Below are positions 684 through 53,194 of a DNA stretch of 64,000 nt, in pieces. The stretch's first letter is position 1. Every line of letters starts with the position of its first letter. The position numbers and the translations under genes were made by a program. This DNA is from an uncultured Bacilli bacterium (GTDB lineage: Bacteria; Bacillota_I; Bacilli_A; RF39; UBA660). Under the pieces are notes generated by a model. That model was given only the letters and a program-made list of their open reading frames with translations. It searched no databases and was not told the DNA's origin. The stretch is from assembly GCA_947588685.1 (NCBI GenBank), contig CANPYM010000001.1, positions 64,479 through 128,478 of the forward strand, in the 5' to 3' direction.

Positions 684-707
684 AAAAAACTCGATAAAAA
701 TATCGAG
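684..707 (-). terminator. Intrinsic terminator of the structured RNA
   Basis: Minus strand CTCGATA-TTTT-TATCGAG-TTTTTT. Confidence 0.85.
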
Positions 708-996
708 TTAATAATCATTGTTTACTGGCACAACAATTAAAGCCTCTATAAATCCCTTACTATAAGTAAAGGACTACAGCTACCGATAAATCGGTGCTAG
801 GACATATCCTACACTTGGTAGGTATGTTTAGTGCCTTTTATAAGCACTGTGAAGATAATAGGACTCCAACCTATACTAGGATAGTTTAACTCTCTATCCC
901 ACCCTTATGTCTAAATCCATAAGTTTCGAGAGGGTGTCAGCCTCCTGTTCTATCGCTATTGAACATATATCTTCACACTACCTATAAAGTAGTGTT
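684..996 (-). ncRNA. Large structured RNA candidate with many hairpins and a terminal intrinsic terminator
   Basis: No ORF. Helices include 975-981/989-995, long-range 848-857/968-977, 947-950/961-964, 904-909/918-923, 879-884/894-899, 830-834/844-848, 802-812/818-827, 782-787/790-795, 755-760/766-772; terminator 690-696/701-707 followed by a U-run on the minus strand. Confidence 0.75.
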
Positions 997-11549: not shown

Positions 11550-12086
11550 CTATTCTTCTATATACTTATCAAAATCACAATAAGCCAAATTTTTTATAGC
11601 AAGTGCTTGATACCTTCTTTTTGTTAAAGAAGTGTTGAATCTAAAACTATTAATAACTTCTTTTGATAAAGTTATATCAATAGTTTTTTTGATGTTCTTA
11701 GCTGCAAAACAAATTTTACAAACAATATTGTCTCTATGTTCTCTAATATCTTTAATCATAACGATTCGTTTTTTTAAATCATTAATTGCTTTAATTGAAA
11801 TATTTTTTAAATAAGAATAATTAACTTCTGAAACTAAATTCATATCTGTAAAATAATATAGGCAATCAGGATTAATATTAGAATTAGGATAATTACCTAT
11901 CAAATCAGATCCTGTAATAATCTGATTAAATTGCTTTTCAAACGAATAATTTTGTTCTTTGTCAGCATATTCATAAAATGCATTTTTTAAAGAATTATAA
12001 TGATCTATAACAGATCTATTTTTTTTATACTTATAGTTTATGCCCATAACTTTTCGTTCTAATTTTTTCAATATATCTTTTTTCAT
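11550..12086 (-). CDS. Phage hypothetical protein
   Basis: 178-aa ORF, good RBS. Confidence 0.5.
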   Translation of the reverse strand: MKKDILKKLERKVMGINYKYKKNRSVIDHYNSLKNAFYEYADKEQNYSFEKQFNQIITGSDLIGNYPNSNINPDCLYYFTDMNLVSEVNYSYLKNISIKAINDLKKRIVMIKDIREHRDNIVCKICFAAKNIKKTIDITLSKEVINSFRFNTSLTKRRYQALAIKNLAYCDFDKYIEE

Positions 12087-12226
12087 ATGGCCTCCTTCCT
12101 ACAATTTTCAACATTTGAATTAAATTGAATCTTTATAATTTTGTTTAAATCTTCTATCATTTTCTTTGCTTTTTCATTTGATGGTGGATTTACGACTCTA
12201 ACTTTAAGTTTGGTAGCTTTTTTCAT
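12083..12226 (-). CDS. Small phage protein, 47 aa (not in ORF track)
   Basis: MKKATKLKVRVVNPPSNEKAKKMIEDLNKIIKIQFNSNVENCRKEAI*; ATGA overlap with the next gene. Confidence 0.65.
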   Translation of the reverse strand: MKKATKLKVRVVNPPSNEKAKKMIEDLNKIIKIQFNSNVENCRKEAI

Positions 12227-12244
12227 TTGACTAATACCTTTCTA

Positions 12245-12941: not shown

Positions 12942-13586
12942 ATGGCCGAATATCTTAATAAAAATATAAAATATATTAGAGCAAATAATAAAATGTCACA
13001 GCAAGATCTAGCTGATAAAGTTGGAATAGATAGATCAACTATTTCAAGGATTGAAAACAACGAGGTTGAAACAACTATAGATAATGCAATAAAGATTTCG
13101 CAAGCCTTAAATGTTCCTCTAGCTGACTTGATAAGTAAAGATTTACAATTCGATAATGCCACTCAAGTCGACATCTCCTCTGACATAATAAAAATACCTG
13201 TATACGGAACAATTAAAGCTGGTATACCTATTGAATCACAAGAGGACATTATTGAATACGTAGATATTCCTGCTGAATGGACCAAAGGTGATAAAAAATT
13301 CTTTGGCATAAAAATAAGTGGTGACAGTATGTCACCAAAATATGATGAAAATGACATCGTTATATTTGAACAAAATAACGATTTAGAGATGTATAATGGA
13401 AAAGACTGCGCTATTATGATTAATGGAACCGAATCAACATTTAAAAAACTATTGGTAAATGACAATGGTATTGTATTACAGCCTTATAATACAGCCTATG
13501 ATATTATGATGTATTCCAAAGAACTAGTTGAGCAATTGCCTATTCGAGTTATAGGTATTGCACGAGAAAAAAGGACGAGAGTATGA
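12942..13586 (+). CDS. CI/LexA-type phage repressor (HTH + S24 peptidase)
   Basis: HTH MSQQDLADKVGIDRSTISRIENN; Ala-Gly cleavage site IKAGIP; catalytic SGDSMSP and TFKKL. Confidence 0.92.
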   Translation: MAEYLNKNIKYIRANNKMSQQDLADKVGIDRSTISRIENNEVETTIDNAIKISQALNVPLADLISKDLQFDNATQVDISSDIIKIPVYGTIKAGIPIESQEDIIEYVDIPAEWTKGDKKFFGIKISGDSMSPKYDENDIVIFEQNNDLEMYNGKDCAIMINGTESTFKKLLVNDNGIVLQPYNTAYDIMMYSKELVEQLPIRVIGIAREKRTRV

Positions 13587-14311
13587 AGATAAAAAAAAGA
13601 GCTAGATTAATAAGAAATATTTATTGCGATGAGAGTTGCTATTTAGAACATGATCATAAAAATTATATGGTTTTAGGTGCCTTGATGTGCAATAAGAGTT
13701 CTAGAAAACAAATTTGTCAACATATTAGGGAAATAAAGTTAAAGCATGGAATTAATAAGTTTCAAGAAATAAAGTGGACCAAAATATCAATGCAAAAATA
13801 TCCATTATATGAAGAGTTAATTCGCTATTTTTTTAATAATAATTGCCTAAAATTTAGAGCAATTATTGTAAACAAAGAAAAAATTAATCATAAGAATTTT
13901 AATCAAACACATGACACATTTTATTATAAGGTTTATTATCAATTATTATGTAGGGCAATATCTACAAAAGATGAAAATTATATTTATTTAGATATAAAAG
14001 ATACAAAAAGTGCAAGAAAAATTAGAAAACTGCAAGAATGTTTAAAAAACGGGATTTATGATTTTAATATGAACCATATTAAAAGGATTCAGAATATTAA
14101 CTCTAAAGAAAGTGAACTACTTCAATTATGTGACATTTTAATTGGTGCAATTGGATATCTTAATAGAGGCGATATTTTAAAAGAAAACCATAACATAGCT
14201 AAAGAAAAAATAGTAAATCTTATAATCAAAGAAAGTGGGTATAACTTAAGAAAAACAACTTTTTTATCGGAGGAAAAATTTAATTTGTTTTTTATGGAGT
14301 TACAAAAATGA
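13583..14311 (+). CDS. DUF3800-family protein
   Basis: N-terminal NIYCDESCYLEHDHKNYMVLGALM and C-terminal LLQLCDILIGAIGYLNRG typical of DUF3800; overlaps the repressor stop by 4 nt. Confidence 0.75.
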   Translation: MKIKKRARLIRNIYCDESCYLEHDHKNYMVLGALMCNKSSRKQICQHIREIKLKHGINKFQEIKWTKISMQKYPLYEELIRYFFNNNCLKFRAIIVNKEKINHKNFNQTHDTFYYKVYYQLLCRAISTKDENYIYLDIKDTKSARKIRKLQECLKNGIYDFNMNHIKRIQNINSKESELLQLCDILIGAIGYLNRGDILKENHNIAKEKIVNLIIKESGYNLRKTTFLSEEKFNLFFMELQK

Positions 14312-14844
14312 TAGAAGATATCTGCCTATGGTTACCAAAAATAATCACATTAGAAGAGTTTAATGGTAACTGGGCCGCATATAATGATGCTATATATAAA
14401 ATTTTCATAAATGATTTTATAAAAAATAAATTATACTTTCGAAATAAAAAAGTTGAAATTAGAATTAACCCAAAAGAGAATAATTATGAGCATGCATTCA
14501 TTCACTTAACAAGTAAAGAAGTAAATCAGCCAGTAGATGTAAATGATAGAATAGCCGATTTAAGAAGATGTGAAAGAATTGCTTGGAATAGAAAAATTAT
14601 TGAAAATTATGAATGTAAAAATAGTTGTCCTAATTGTAGAAAAATCTTATATTATGAGGAGTATTATAAAAACAACATTAGAATTAACTTATTGTTTGCC
14701 GATGTCAATTTTAAAGTTATCCTTGAAAAAAGGAAAAATTATTATTTATTAATTACAGGCTATTACATCTACTACAAACATAAGATGAAAAAAGAACTAA
14801 AAAAGGTAACTACATATTTGCAACAGAAAACGCCACTTGATTAG
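14308..14844 (+). CDS. Uncharacterised protein paired with DUF3800; possible BECR-fold nuclease
   Basis: C-terminal FADVNFKVILEKRKNYYLLITGYYI and upstream conserved-looking His (YEHAFIHLT); overlaps DUF3800 by 4 nt. Confidence 0.5.
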   Translation: MIEDICLWLPKIITLEEFNGNWAAYNDAIYKIFINDFIKNKLYFRNKKVEIRINPKENNYEHAFIHLTSKEVNQPVDVNDRIADLRRCERIAWNRKIIENYECKNSCPNCRKILYYEEYYKNNIRINLLFADVNFKVILEKRKNYYLLITGYYIYYKHKMKKELKKVTTYLQQKTPLD

Positions 14845-14943
14845 TTCAAGTGACGCTTCCAGAATCTCCTTTTACCATAGGTAAATGAGAAAATAGAGCA
14901 TTCAAATAGCTCATCCACCATGACGAAGCATATCGCTTCCGGT
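14827..14943 (-). ncRNA. Small RNA candidate with promoter and terminator
   Basis: Minus strand promoter TTGACA-N17-TATATT (14978-14950), hairpins GAAGC/GCTTC, GAGC/GCTC, TTTACC/GGTAAA; terminator 14827-14856 (GCGTCACTTGA/TCAAGTGGCGTTTT). Confidence 0.75.
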
Positions 14944-14949
14944 ACAAAT

Positions 14950-14978
14950 AATATATCAAAAAATACATTATTTGTCAA
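14950..14978 (-). promoter_or_regulatory. Sigma-A-type promoter of the ~117-nt RNA
   Basis: TTGACA, 17-nt spacer, TATATT on the minus strand. Confidence 0.8.
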
Positions 14979-15055: not shown

Positions 15056-15152
15056 AAAAAGACCAGTGCTGGAACACTAGTCAAATGAAAACCCTATTAA
15101 GCTACCAAACTTAAAGTACAGTTGAACTCTGTGCAAATGTATGAGGTTTTCT
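15056..15152 (-). ncRNA. Second small RNA candidate with extended -10 promoter and terminator
   Basis: TGCTATAAT at 15066-15158 region (TATAAT = 15163-15158); closing stem GAAAACCU/AGGGUUUUC; hairpins ACAG/CUGU and UUAAG/CUUAA; terminator GACTAGTG-TTCCAG-CACTGGTC-TTTTT (15056-15082). Confidence 0.7.
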
Positions 15153-15202
15153 CATACATTATAGCACAAATATTTTTTAAAATCTATAAAGGAAGTGTTA
15201 TA

Positions 15203-16723
15203 ATGAATTTTTTAAAACAAAATTTGTCAACTGAAGAAGCTTATAATTATTATTTAAAAGAGGCTGATGAGGACTGGAAAAAAGGGGCACTATATATCAG
15301 AGTGTCAACAAATGATCAAGTTGAATATTCCCCTGCTTCTCAAATAAAAATTGGATTAAAATATGCAATAGAAAATCAGATCTTTATATCTCATGAACAT
15401 ATATTTCAAGATGATGGTATTTCTGGAAGACAAACTGATAAAAGATTAGATTTTATGAAAATGATTACTTTAGCAAAATCAAAAAGTCACCCTTTCGATG
15501 TTATATTAGTTTATTCATTTAGTCGCTTTGCCCGTAATAGAGAGGATTCCATTGTTTACAAAAGTATGTTAAGAAAAAAATGTGGAGTGGATGTCATTAG
15601 CATCACACAGCCACTATCTGAAGGCAAAGAATCTATTATATTAGAATCGATCTATGAAGCAATGGATGAATATTATTCATTAGACTTATCAGAAAATTCT
15701 CGTCGAGGAAAGCAAGAAAAAGCAACTCGAGGTGAATGGCAAGGAAATCCACCATATGGATACATCTATGACAAAAACACTAAACAATTAATTATTGACG
15801 AAGAAAAAGCAAAAATTGTAAATATGATTTATAACGATTATGTAAATGGAATGAGCATCAAAGGAATAGCAAACAAACTTGCAAAAAAAGGATTGAAATC
15901 AACCCGAGGAGGATTTTTCACTGATCGAGTTCTAAAAAGAATCTTGTATAATCCAGCTTATATTGGAAAAGTTAGATTTTGTGTTGGTGGATTTAAAAGA
16001 AACTATTCCAATCCAAATATTCAAATATTTGATGGTAAACATCAACCAATTATCGACAAGGAGCTATTTGACAAAGCGCAGGCTATAAATGCGCAAAAAG
16101 AAGAATTAAGTTTCAAATATAAAAAACCACAACCTAAACATGAACATTGGCTTCGTGGACTTCTCAAATGTGGTGATTGTGGAAAGTTTATGGTTAAAAT
16201 CAAGGTGCATAATAGAACAAATGCGTATTTTCAATGCAACGGATATATAAAGGGAATATGTTTTAGATCTCATCATATTTTAGAATCGAAAGTTGTCGGG
16301 TTAATTCTAAACCAATTAAAACAAGATTTTACTGATAAGCTAAATATTAATATATCATTGTCAAACTATGAAAATGAGTCAGAATTAGATATGATAAATA
16401 TCAAAATAAAAAAATTGCTACAAAAAGAGAAAAAAATTAAAGAGGCTTTTTATTCTGGAATTGATACACTTAACGAATATAAGGAAAACAAAGAAGCTGT
16501 TGAAAAAGAAATTAAAAAATTAAAGAAAGAATATAATTCATTAAAACTTATGTCTTCCAAACAATCAAAGTTGGAACAAATATACGCAAAGTCTGAAAAG
16601 GCATATAAGATCCTTTCGGACGATACTGCACCCGATGAACTAAAAAGCACAATTGCACATACTCTTTTTGAAAAAATTGTATATGATAAGGATAATGAAG
16701 AGTTAATAATCTATTATAAATAA
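15203..16723 (+). CDS. Large serine recombinase (phage integrase)
   Basis: Resolvase domain ALYIRVSTNDQ...VYSFSRFARN; recombinase domain; zinc ribbon LLKCGDCGKFM; ATG at 15203 has RBS AAAGGAAG (ORF track start 15122 is probably too long). Confidence 0.93.
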   Translation: MNFLKQNLSTEEAYNYYLKEADEDWKKGALYIRVSTNDQVEYSPASQIKIGLKYAIENQIFISHEHIFQDDGISGRQTDKRLDFMKMITLAKSKSHPFDVILVYSFSRFARNREDSIVYKSMLRKKCGVDVISITQPLSEGKESIILESIYEAMDEYYSLDLSENSRRGKQEKATRGEWQGNPPYGYIYDKNTKQLIIDEEKAKIVNMIYNDYVNGMSIKGIANKLAKKGLKSTRGGFFTDRVLKRILYNPAYIGKVRFCVGGFKRNYSNPNIQIFDGKHQPIIDKELFDKAQAINAQKEELSFKYKKPQPKHEHWLRGLLKCGDCGKFMVKIKVHNRTNAYFQCNGYIKGICFRSHHILESKVVGLILNQLKQDFTDKLNINISLSNYENESELDMINIKIKKLLQKEKKIKEAFYSGIDTLNEYKENKEAVEKEIKKLKKEYNSLKLMSSKQSKLEQIYAKSEKAYKILSDDTAPDELKSTIAHTLFEKIVYDKDNEELIIYYK

Positions 16724-16973
16724 AGACTTTTTTTATTGTATACCTAATGACTTTATCCCCAACGAGATCGCCCTTTTTACAATATTCAACCGTACTTTCT
16801 GCTACGCCCTTCCATAAGACACAAGAAATAAAATCGGTTTCATATTCGCCACTCGCATTTTTAAAAGAACGTGGTACGGCAAGGGTCACATTGGCAATTT
16901 TATTTCCATTTTCCGTTTCTCTTAATTCTGGATCTTGTACAATCCGTCCTACTAATACAGCTTGATTTAACAT
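16548..16973 (-). pseudogene. ssb: ssb (single-stranded DNA-binding protein), truncated by prophage integration; 3' part replaced by antisense integrase sequence
   Basis: MLNQAVLVGRIVQDPELRETENGNKIANVTLAVPRSF...YCKKGDLVG then non-SSB residues. Confidence 0.85.
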
Positions 16974-51856: not shown

Positions 51857-53194
51857 TTATTTATCTTCTTCTTTTGGAATATTTAATTTTTCCCTTAGTT
51901 TTTGTTCATACTCTTCTTCTAAAAGATATATTTCCTTACTACTCATAAATAGGATAACAGCATTTTCATATTCTAACAATTTATCAGCCATACCCTGTTC
52001 AATGTAATCACCATTATCAAGGCCATTAATAATGGTATAAGCATCAACTCCTGGATAATCTTCTGGGCTTTCCCGGTCATAATTAATATCCATAACATAA
52101 GCTTTATCAGCTAAGTTTAAAGAACGAACAAACTCATCTTTAAAATCTTGAACCCGTGAAAAAGTATGAGGTTTAAATACTGCAATAACTTGTTTGTCAG
52201 GATATTTTTGGCGGGCTGATTTAATGGTTACCGCCACCTCTGTTGGGTGGTGAGCATAATCATCAATAAGAACATTATCTCCGATAAATGTCTCTTTAAA
52301 ACGTCTTTCAGCACCTTCAAAAGTTTTTAATAATTTTGAAACATCTTTAGCTTCATAGCGTTCGTAGTAACAAACACCAATTGCTGCCAAAGCATTTAGG
52401 AGCATATGTTTACCAAATAATGGTAAATCAAAATGACCATAATATTCATCTTCAATAAAGACGTCAAAACTTGTGCCATCATTGCGATACTCAATGTTTC
52501 TAGCTTGAATATCATTATCTTCAGCAATACCATAGTAATAAACAGGTTTAGAAAGTTCTAATGAATGGGTATAAGGATTATCTCCACAAATAATATCCAT
52601 TTTTGATGCTTTATTAGCAAACTCTTGGTAAGCGCTAATAACATCATCAATATCTTTAAAGTAATCCATATGATCTAATTCAATATTAGTTATAATAACA
52701 TATTCAGGTTCATATTCTAAGAAATGTCTTCGATATTCACATGACTCTAAAATAAACTTTTTATTTTCTAGATTAGCGTGACCCCGGCCATCACCAATCA
52801 AATAGTTACAACCATCAATATTATTGATGATATGGCTTAACATCGCCGTTGTTGTCGTCTTACCATGACAACCAGCAATAGAAACAGTCTCCCATTTTTT
52901 AGTTAATTTACCTAGCATTTCGTGATACTCATAGATTCGAAGATCTAACTCATGCGCTTTAACTAATTCGTGATGATCACTTCTTATAGCTGATGAAAAG
53001 ACAACAATTGTATCTTTATCTAAAGCGTCATTTGCTTCTGTATAAATCTTAATATTGCGTTCAAGTAACTTATCTTCAGTAAAACGATGTTCACTCGCAT
53101 CATCATAACCAATTACTTCATAGCCTAAATCATCTAAGATCATAGCTAGAGCACTCATACCAGCACCTTTTATACCTATCAAGTAATATTTCAT
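51857..53194 (-). CDS. murC: UDP-N-acetylmuramate-L-alanine ligase
   Basis: IGIKGAGMSALA; AGCHGKTTTTAML; DDYAHHPTEV. Confidence 0.96.
   Translation of the reverse strand: MKYYLIGIKGAGMSALAMILDDLGYEVIGYDDASEHRFTEDKLLERNIKIYTEANDALDKDTIVVFSSAIRSDHHELVKAHELDLRIYEYHEMLGKLTKKWETVSIAGCHGKTTTTAMLSHIINNIDGCNYLIGDGRGHANLENKKFILESCEYRRHFLEYEPEYVIITNIELDHMDYFKDIDDVISAYQEFANKASKMDIICGDNPYTHSLELSKPVYYYGIAEDNDIQARNIEYRNDGTSFDVFIEDEYYGHFDLPLFGKHMLLNALAAIGVCYYERYEAKDVSKLLKTFEGAERRFKETFIGDNVLIDDYAHHPTEVAVTIKSARQKYPDKQVIAVFKPHTFSRVQDFKDEFVRSLNLADKAYVMDINYDRESPEDYPGVDAYTIINGLDNGDYIEQGMADKLLEYENAVILFMSSKEIYLLEEEYEQKLREKLNIPKEEDK

Follow-up and report, generated by a model that had tools for sequence, protein, structure and literature searches.

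A DUF3800 gene pair of a Bacilli prophage, the structured RNA encoded at its end and orphan relatives of that RNA in other phages

Two overlapping genes of a prophage in an uncultured Bacilli bacterium, here called A and B, are accompanied by a small structured RNA (RNA1) that is encoded at the end of B. The same arrangement is found in phage P1, where the pair is named rlfA-rlfB. The RNA occurs in two classes that follow the clades of the proteins, and relatives of it are present in other phages where A and B are missing. Judged by analogy with RNA antitoxins of other systems, RNA1 most likely inhibits A and B, and the orphan RNAs would then be antidotes carried by phages. The pair was already known as a candidate (PADLOC PDC-M04). 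As far as the open-licence literature shows, three things are new: the RNA that belongs to the rlfAB/PDC-M04 pair, its correspondence with the protein clades and the orphan arrays.

The gene pair and its relatives

The window (the whole analysed stretch of 64,000 nt) is part of a 1.16-Mb genome assembly in 30 contigs. In its prophage the CI repressor is followed by A, B, a gap of about 360 nt and a serine recombinase with Resolvase, Recombinase and Zn ribbon domains. The ATGA at 13583-13586 is common to the repressor and A, and that at 14308-14311 is common to A and B. Both 4-nt junctions had been described in the earlier note and agree with the coordinates; the gene order likewise confirms the slot between repressor and recombinase to which it assigned the pair. 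The features of the locus are the following.

12942-13586 (+): CI-type repressor (HTH_3 and Peptidase_S24 by Pfam), heading the run of overlapping genes
13583-14311 (+): A, DUF3800/PDC-M04A/RlfA-like protein of 242 aa with an RNase H2-like model
14308-14844 (+): B, PDC-M04B/RlfB-like protein of 178 aa (PADLOC) with a RelE/BECR-like AF2 model
14824-14943 (-): RNA1, small RNA convergent to A-B (folding z-score -4.61; 48.1 bits with covariance model R1 at 14815-14891, as a training member; covariation in its hairpin P1)
14890-14943 (-): RNA1 leader
14866-14889 (-): RNA1 hairpin P1 (the 5' hairpin)
14824-14859 (-): RNA1 terminator hairpin P2 with U-rich end
14950-14978 (-): promoter-like site of RNA1 (TTGACA, 17 nt, TATATT)
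15056-15157 (-): RNA2, structured small RNA with complementarity to an early prophage mRNA

Past the recombinase, the start of an ssb-like ORF (16548-16973, minus strand, located by eye) overlaps the recombinase end, as if the prophage had integrated in ssb.

Protein A belongs to DUF3800 (PF12686), with a Pfam E-value of 6.9e-15 and 56.5 bits against a curated cut-off of 21, and matches PADLOC PDC-M04A at 7.3e-85. Its AF2 model, built on a 15-sequence alignment (pLDDT 87.1), is matched to RNase HII (1eke) by VIA with Z 13.1 over 170 residues at 3.5 Å and to 3p83 (RNase HII/H2) by Foldseek at 5.9e-6. This match stands clear of unrelated rows; the PIWI domains of Argonautes also appear among the VIA rows, at Z of about 6-8. 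The acidic active site of RNase H2 consists of an Asp-Glu pair and two further Asp. In A, D16 and E17 are conserved in 98% of 62 sequences, and E62, K64, W65, D137, S174, Q181 and D184 in all 62. The earlier assignment of A to DUF3800 with a predicted RNase H-like fold is thus upheld by both the Pfam and the VIA match.

For B, for which the earlier note had guessed a BECR/RelE-like nuclease, the prediction is less certain. No Pfam or NCBIfam family scored above cut-off, and B matches ten PADLOC PDC-M04B models (best 6.6e-55). With a model from a 17-sequence alignment (pLDDT 87.2), the VIA list is headed, at modest Z scores of 4.5-5.6, by toxins of the RelE/BECR group: a CDI toxin, one of RelE type, BrnT, HigB1 and colicin D (CdiA toxin 8ey4 and 7vd7, both 5.6; BrnT, 4.8; HigB1, 4.6; colicin D, 4.5), and ToxN-type toxins of type III systems are absent among the VIA matches listed. 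The kind of toxin that heads the rows speaks for the guess, though the scores are modest and a Foldseek search of the B model gave no match below E 0.16. H66 is conserved in 98% and R87 in 100% of 56 sequences. Searching PDB sequences with the A and B profiles gave weak matches to unrelated proteins (best E 0.025).

A and B are not a chance pair, since B is adjacent on the same strand at 64 of the 74 ORFs that match an A profile. Among the remaining ten, two run to the end of their contig, one A is truncated, and behind two others the raw sequence directly shows a B-like frame. Within the family, 17 of 193 genomes contain PDC-M04B; in the phylum sample, 5 of 392 do. A search of the IMG/VR viral contigs with the A alignment found 59 loci, although the single A and B proteins of the window found no relatives there. 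Among 50,697 phage records, 17 match A, as do 116 among 72,556 plasmids. As read from the loci, the neighbours are in many cases integrases, restriction-modification-like or host genes, not replication genes. Two loci (L030 and L031) hold B-like ORFs with no recognised A; L031 retains RNA1, and its upstream ORF of 309 aa looks unrelated.

Named relatives, which are absent from the earlier note, include RlfA/RlfB of P1 and P7 (P7 rapA), those of a Bifidobacterium phage and others, besides PDC-M04A/B. In P1 the pair has the same order, with 45% identity for A, and RNA1 follows directly after rlfB (R1 46.7 bits, L224 5145-5217, record 52905-52977, minus strand). P1 differs in that rlf was named after lytic replication, in that no RNA is annotated there and in that its annotation places a C1 operator, Orlf, before rlfA. 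Because of Orlf, expression of the pair in the lysogen, as the earlier note assumed from the repressor overlap, may not be general. The P1-type A-B-RNA stretch is carried, over at least 80% of its length, by 117 of 5,426 E. coli genomes. The proposal that A and B form a candidate defence pair stands in so far as PADLOC catalogues them as such, with both of its proteins matching adjacent A and B; the pair alone is incomplete, with RNA1 as a third part. The PADLOC models comprise proteins only, and no text on PDC-M04 was found in the open-licence literature.

The structured RNA and its two classes

Downstream of B the loci have a small RNA in common, together with a promoter-like site, and in most cases both lie on the strand opposite to A-B. 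The 5' hairpin of class I RNAs consists of CUC, a single unpaired base, five base pairs closed by a short loop, then two unpaired bases and GAG. It is followed by a linker and a terminator-like hairpin. RNAalifold recovered the 5' hairpin unaided from 33 aligned RNAs, with two-sided changes in 7 of its 8 pairs. In the alignment 98.1% of the hairpin cells are paired, compared with 42-57% in slid controls, and none of 500 shuffles matched it in any of five measures. The strand follows from the excess of G-U cells (24) over C-A cells (4).

The promoter-like site was scored within 75 nt for each of 35 RNAs, a set that includes six near-copies. The mean was 10.1 against 8.49 for shuffled sequences (Wilcoxon 2e-8), and in 23 of the 35 the -10 element ends 4-6 nt before the hairpin start. 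For RNA1 of the window these 75 nt score below the shuffles; its own site (14950-14978) lies outside them owing to the longer leader.

The covariance model R1 gives RNA matches in 39 of 69 loci, its 33 training sequences included. When positions were compared by hand, 40 of 41 R1 matches fell at the 3' end of B, be it a gene or a fragment. One copy is found in 38 of the 39 class I loci and two in L074, if the weak match at 762-828 of the window is set apart. RNA1 is rare in the phylum sample, where at E 1e-4 R1 matches 2 of 392 genomes. Seven R1 matches, spread over six genomes of the family, have no intact A-B nearby: two are probable false positives, in one case B is decayed, another match falls among phage head genes, and the other three are unexplained.

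Other A-B loci carry a different RNA of similar plan (class II; alignment A4, model R2). R2 matches 11 of 50 A-B-type loci, and R1 matches none of those 11. The class II structure is less sure than that of class I, because the model was built on 10 sequences and RNAalifold, which gives 12 pairs for it with two-sided changes in 3, omits the 5' hairpin seen by eye.

The two classes correspond to two protein clades. Trees were made of 44 proteins each for A and B; L082 and L084 are omitted, as their B had not been called. Both trees split class I (35) from class II (9) at 100/100. L089 and L054 have long branches and meet in the B tree, which leaves the class split unaffected. This agreement between RNA class and protein clade indicates that the RNA and the proteins belong together. 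The orientation of the RNA is not fixed: at L038 (class I) and at L079, L080, L083, L087 and L095 (class II) it reads in the same direction as A and B. This argues for action in trans, and an antisense role in cis is not the feature shared by the loci.

The earlier note had named two small RNAs in the test that it proposed for the pair. Both are indeed structured stretches, yet they are mutually unrelated and RNA2 lies outside the A-B unit. Two stretches of RNA2 (15099-15116 and 15078-15091; 32 nt in total) are perfectly complementary to the region around the start codon of the early ORF 12083-12226 (target 12201-12233, minus strand; predicted duplex -57.7 kcal/mol). In this RNA2 resembles a prophage immunity RNA of the antisense kind. 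As a second RNA of the A-B system it was rejected on account of the same 32 nt and since it has no clear relative near A-B, where mostly short AT-rich matches were obtained.

Orphan RNAs in phages

The 24-nt hairpin pattern of class I matched 100 IMG/VR stretches, 80 of which became loci. A or B is found within 2.5 kb in 14 of these and is missing from that range in 66; one of the latter, L144, is part of the L073 contig, whose A-B lies outside the fetched stretch. No DUF3800 was present in any of 50 orphan-RNA records that were searched whole. Orphan RNAs occur in SPbeta-type prophages and in large phages with tRNA clusters, and tRNA genes were found in 25 of 50 orphan loci examined. In four large phage contigs (L147, L150, L157 and L184) an orphan RNA1, a ROOL RNA and tRNA genes share one locus.

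In 21 records of SPbeta-type prophages, the gap between yonN and yonK holds two class I RNAs and one class II RNA in succession. A DUF3800-VIII RNA joins this row in six loci; in SPbeta the four RNAs lie within about 250 nt. In SPBc2 this gap (L226 2660-4335) spans 1.7 kb with no annotated genes and seemingly contains many structured RNAs, four of which were identified. The R2 matches in the window and in L226 are training members; those in L120 and in other SPbeta-type prophages are not. In L120 a class II and a class I RNA lie together upstream of a putative scaffold gene. An assignment of the contigs of 120-130 kb with the tandem RNA pair to T5-like phages was rejected, as they are Bacillus SPbeta-type phages. 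In the 121-kb phage contig L133, an abiF RNA is found about 140 nt upstream of RNA1, and the record has no Abi_2 protein; like DUF3800-VIII in the SPbeta row, this neighbour is an RNA of antitoxin type.

Chromosomal copies were also observed. Besides the genomes with the larger part of the P1-type stretch, 47 E. coli records match it at 80-90% identity; among the matches listed (six of the 47), the match is chromosomal and covers the RNA1 stretch only, in one case beside an antiterminator Q gene. A strong chromosomal orphan RNA1 (L117 4047-4125, 47.6 bits) has no A-B nearby and adjoins an unassigned ORF of 152 aa.

The window prophage itself probably carries orphan copies in tandem on the minus strand (985-640). 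They lie between an M78 peptidase-like ORF (982-1323) and, by reading, a scaffold-like gene that starts near 600; the region 640-985 was also placed between portal-like and scaffold-like genes.

762-828 (-): weak orphan class I-like RNA, with another helix sequence in the same architecture (R1 21.9 bits; E 0.073 in 0.6 Mb, 7e-5 in 601 nt)
704-778 (-): orphan class II RNA with a terminator at its end (alignment A4; R2 71.3 bits; folding z-score of 680-778, -5.36)

The prophage thus seems to carry one A-B unit together with RNAs of other units. Directly upstream of the class I-like RNA, 840-985 (minus strand) forms a branched stable fold (-48.3 kcal/mol, z-score -4.88).

Proposed function and relation to known systems

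The reading that we prefer, and on which we remain evenly divided, is that A, B and RNA1 form a defence unit, a nuclease pair that is neutralised by its RNA, and that the orphan RNAs are antidotes borne by phages. A would be an RNase H2-like nuclease, B a RelE/BECR-like ribonuclease, either of which might be the toxic component, and the separately transcribed RNA1 would join them in one RNA-protein unit. Its 5' hairpin would bind the proteins and keep them inactive. An incoming phage might then disturb the supply or turnover of RNA, upon which the level of the short-lived RNA1 would fall. The released nuclease pair would cut RNA or RNA-DNA hybrids, and the infection would be stopped. RNAs found without A-B in other phages would protect these against A-B-type units. 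The roles of inhibitor and antidote are suggested by two precedents: the abiF RNA RCd22, an antitoxin that acts by direct binding according to experiments (PMC12373285), and the phage-borne copy of ToxI that protects phage PhiTE, a precedent for antitoxin mimics (PMC3475682). A cargo role would also suit P1, whose rlfA and rlfB were scored nonessential (PMC10695390), and the P1-like plasmids, some of which have the rlf genes deleted (PMC6906374). Several points count against the preferred reading. The fold match of B is modest, RNA1 does not form repeats in front of a toxin gene as the RNAs of type III systems do, and the seven R1 matches in the family have no intact A-B nearby. The orphan RNAs may also have an older job of their own, for example in tRNA clusters.

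RNA1 could alternatively be a required cofactor or guide, with A, B and RNA1 as an active RNP nuclease whose RNA aids substrate recognition. This appears unlikely, if still worth serious attention. It would suit the RNase H2-like fold of A with its conserved D16, E17, D137 and D184, the matches to Argonaute PIWI domains and the presence of DUF3800 beside Cas12a2-type loci (PMC10910872) and VI-F/V-A2 loci (PMC12669027). However, no variable spacer is obvious in RNA1, in which a near-constant 5' hairpin is followed by linker and terminator. Orphan phage copies would moreover be harder to explain, unless they also served as competitors.

We consider it improbable that A and B make up a toxin-antitoxin or nuclease pair of two proteins for which RNA1 serves only as a cis antisense regulator of the 3' end of the B mRNA (type I-like). 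The convergent RNA1 does overlap the end of B (21 nt in the window, 4 nt in P1), but the six loci with the RNA on the A-B strand, the secondary structure conserved beyond the needs of antisense pairing and the existence of orphan copies argue against it. Least credible of all, and very improbable in our judgement, is a service of A and B in phage replication with RNA1 as regulator. The label 'replication protein' of PHROG 16230 and the P1 annotation of the rlf genes ('possibly associated with lytic replication') point that way; the neighbours found in many loci, the nonessential score and the deletions in P1-like plasmids do not.

Returning to the preferred reading, the orphan arrays suggest an extension towards which we are slightly more sceptical than accepting. 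From several RNA-controlled defence units, unrelated to each other or diverged, phages may gather the antitoxin RNAs but not the proteins and so obtain a polyvalent RNA antidote kit. The yonK-yonN gap of SPbeta and 640-985 of the window would be examples, and A-B-RNA1 (including P1 rlfAB) would be a matching unit. If these readings hold, a function would be gained for a gene pair of the textbook phage P1, the RNAs linked to DUF3800 would be joined to a defined protein pair and the unannotated gap in B. subtilis prophage SPbeta would become a testable anti-defence region.

Structured RNAs tied to DUF3800 genes are already a known kind (PMC10910872). The Rfam DUF3800 RNAs (DUF3800-I, -VIII, -IX and others) resemble RNA1 in this tie, and DUF3800-VIII shares the SPbeta array with the class I and class II RNAs. 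In the loci covered by an Rfam scan, RNA1 and the class II RNA matched no family at the gathering score; a weak DUF3800-I match in L041 (29.5 of 44.2 bits) lies about 300 nt past B and not at RNA1. The type III toxin-antitoxin systems AbiF-RCd22 and ToxIN are similar in that a protein is combined with a structured RNA on mobile elements, and for ToxIN the phage mimics of its RNA mentioned above are known. In type III systems a tandem-repeat RNA is located upstream of the toxin and co-transcribed with it. Compared with AbiF-RCd22 and ToxIN, the A-B unit is distinguished by two proteins of other folds and by an RNA that lies downstream, has its own promoter-like site and is usually present in one copy.
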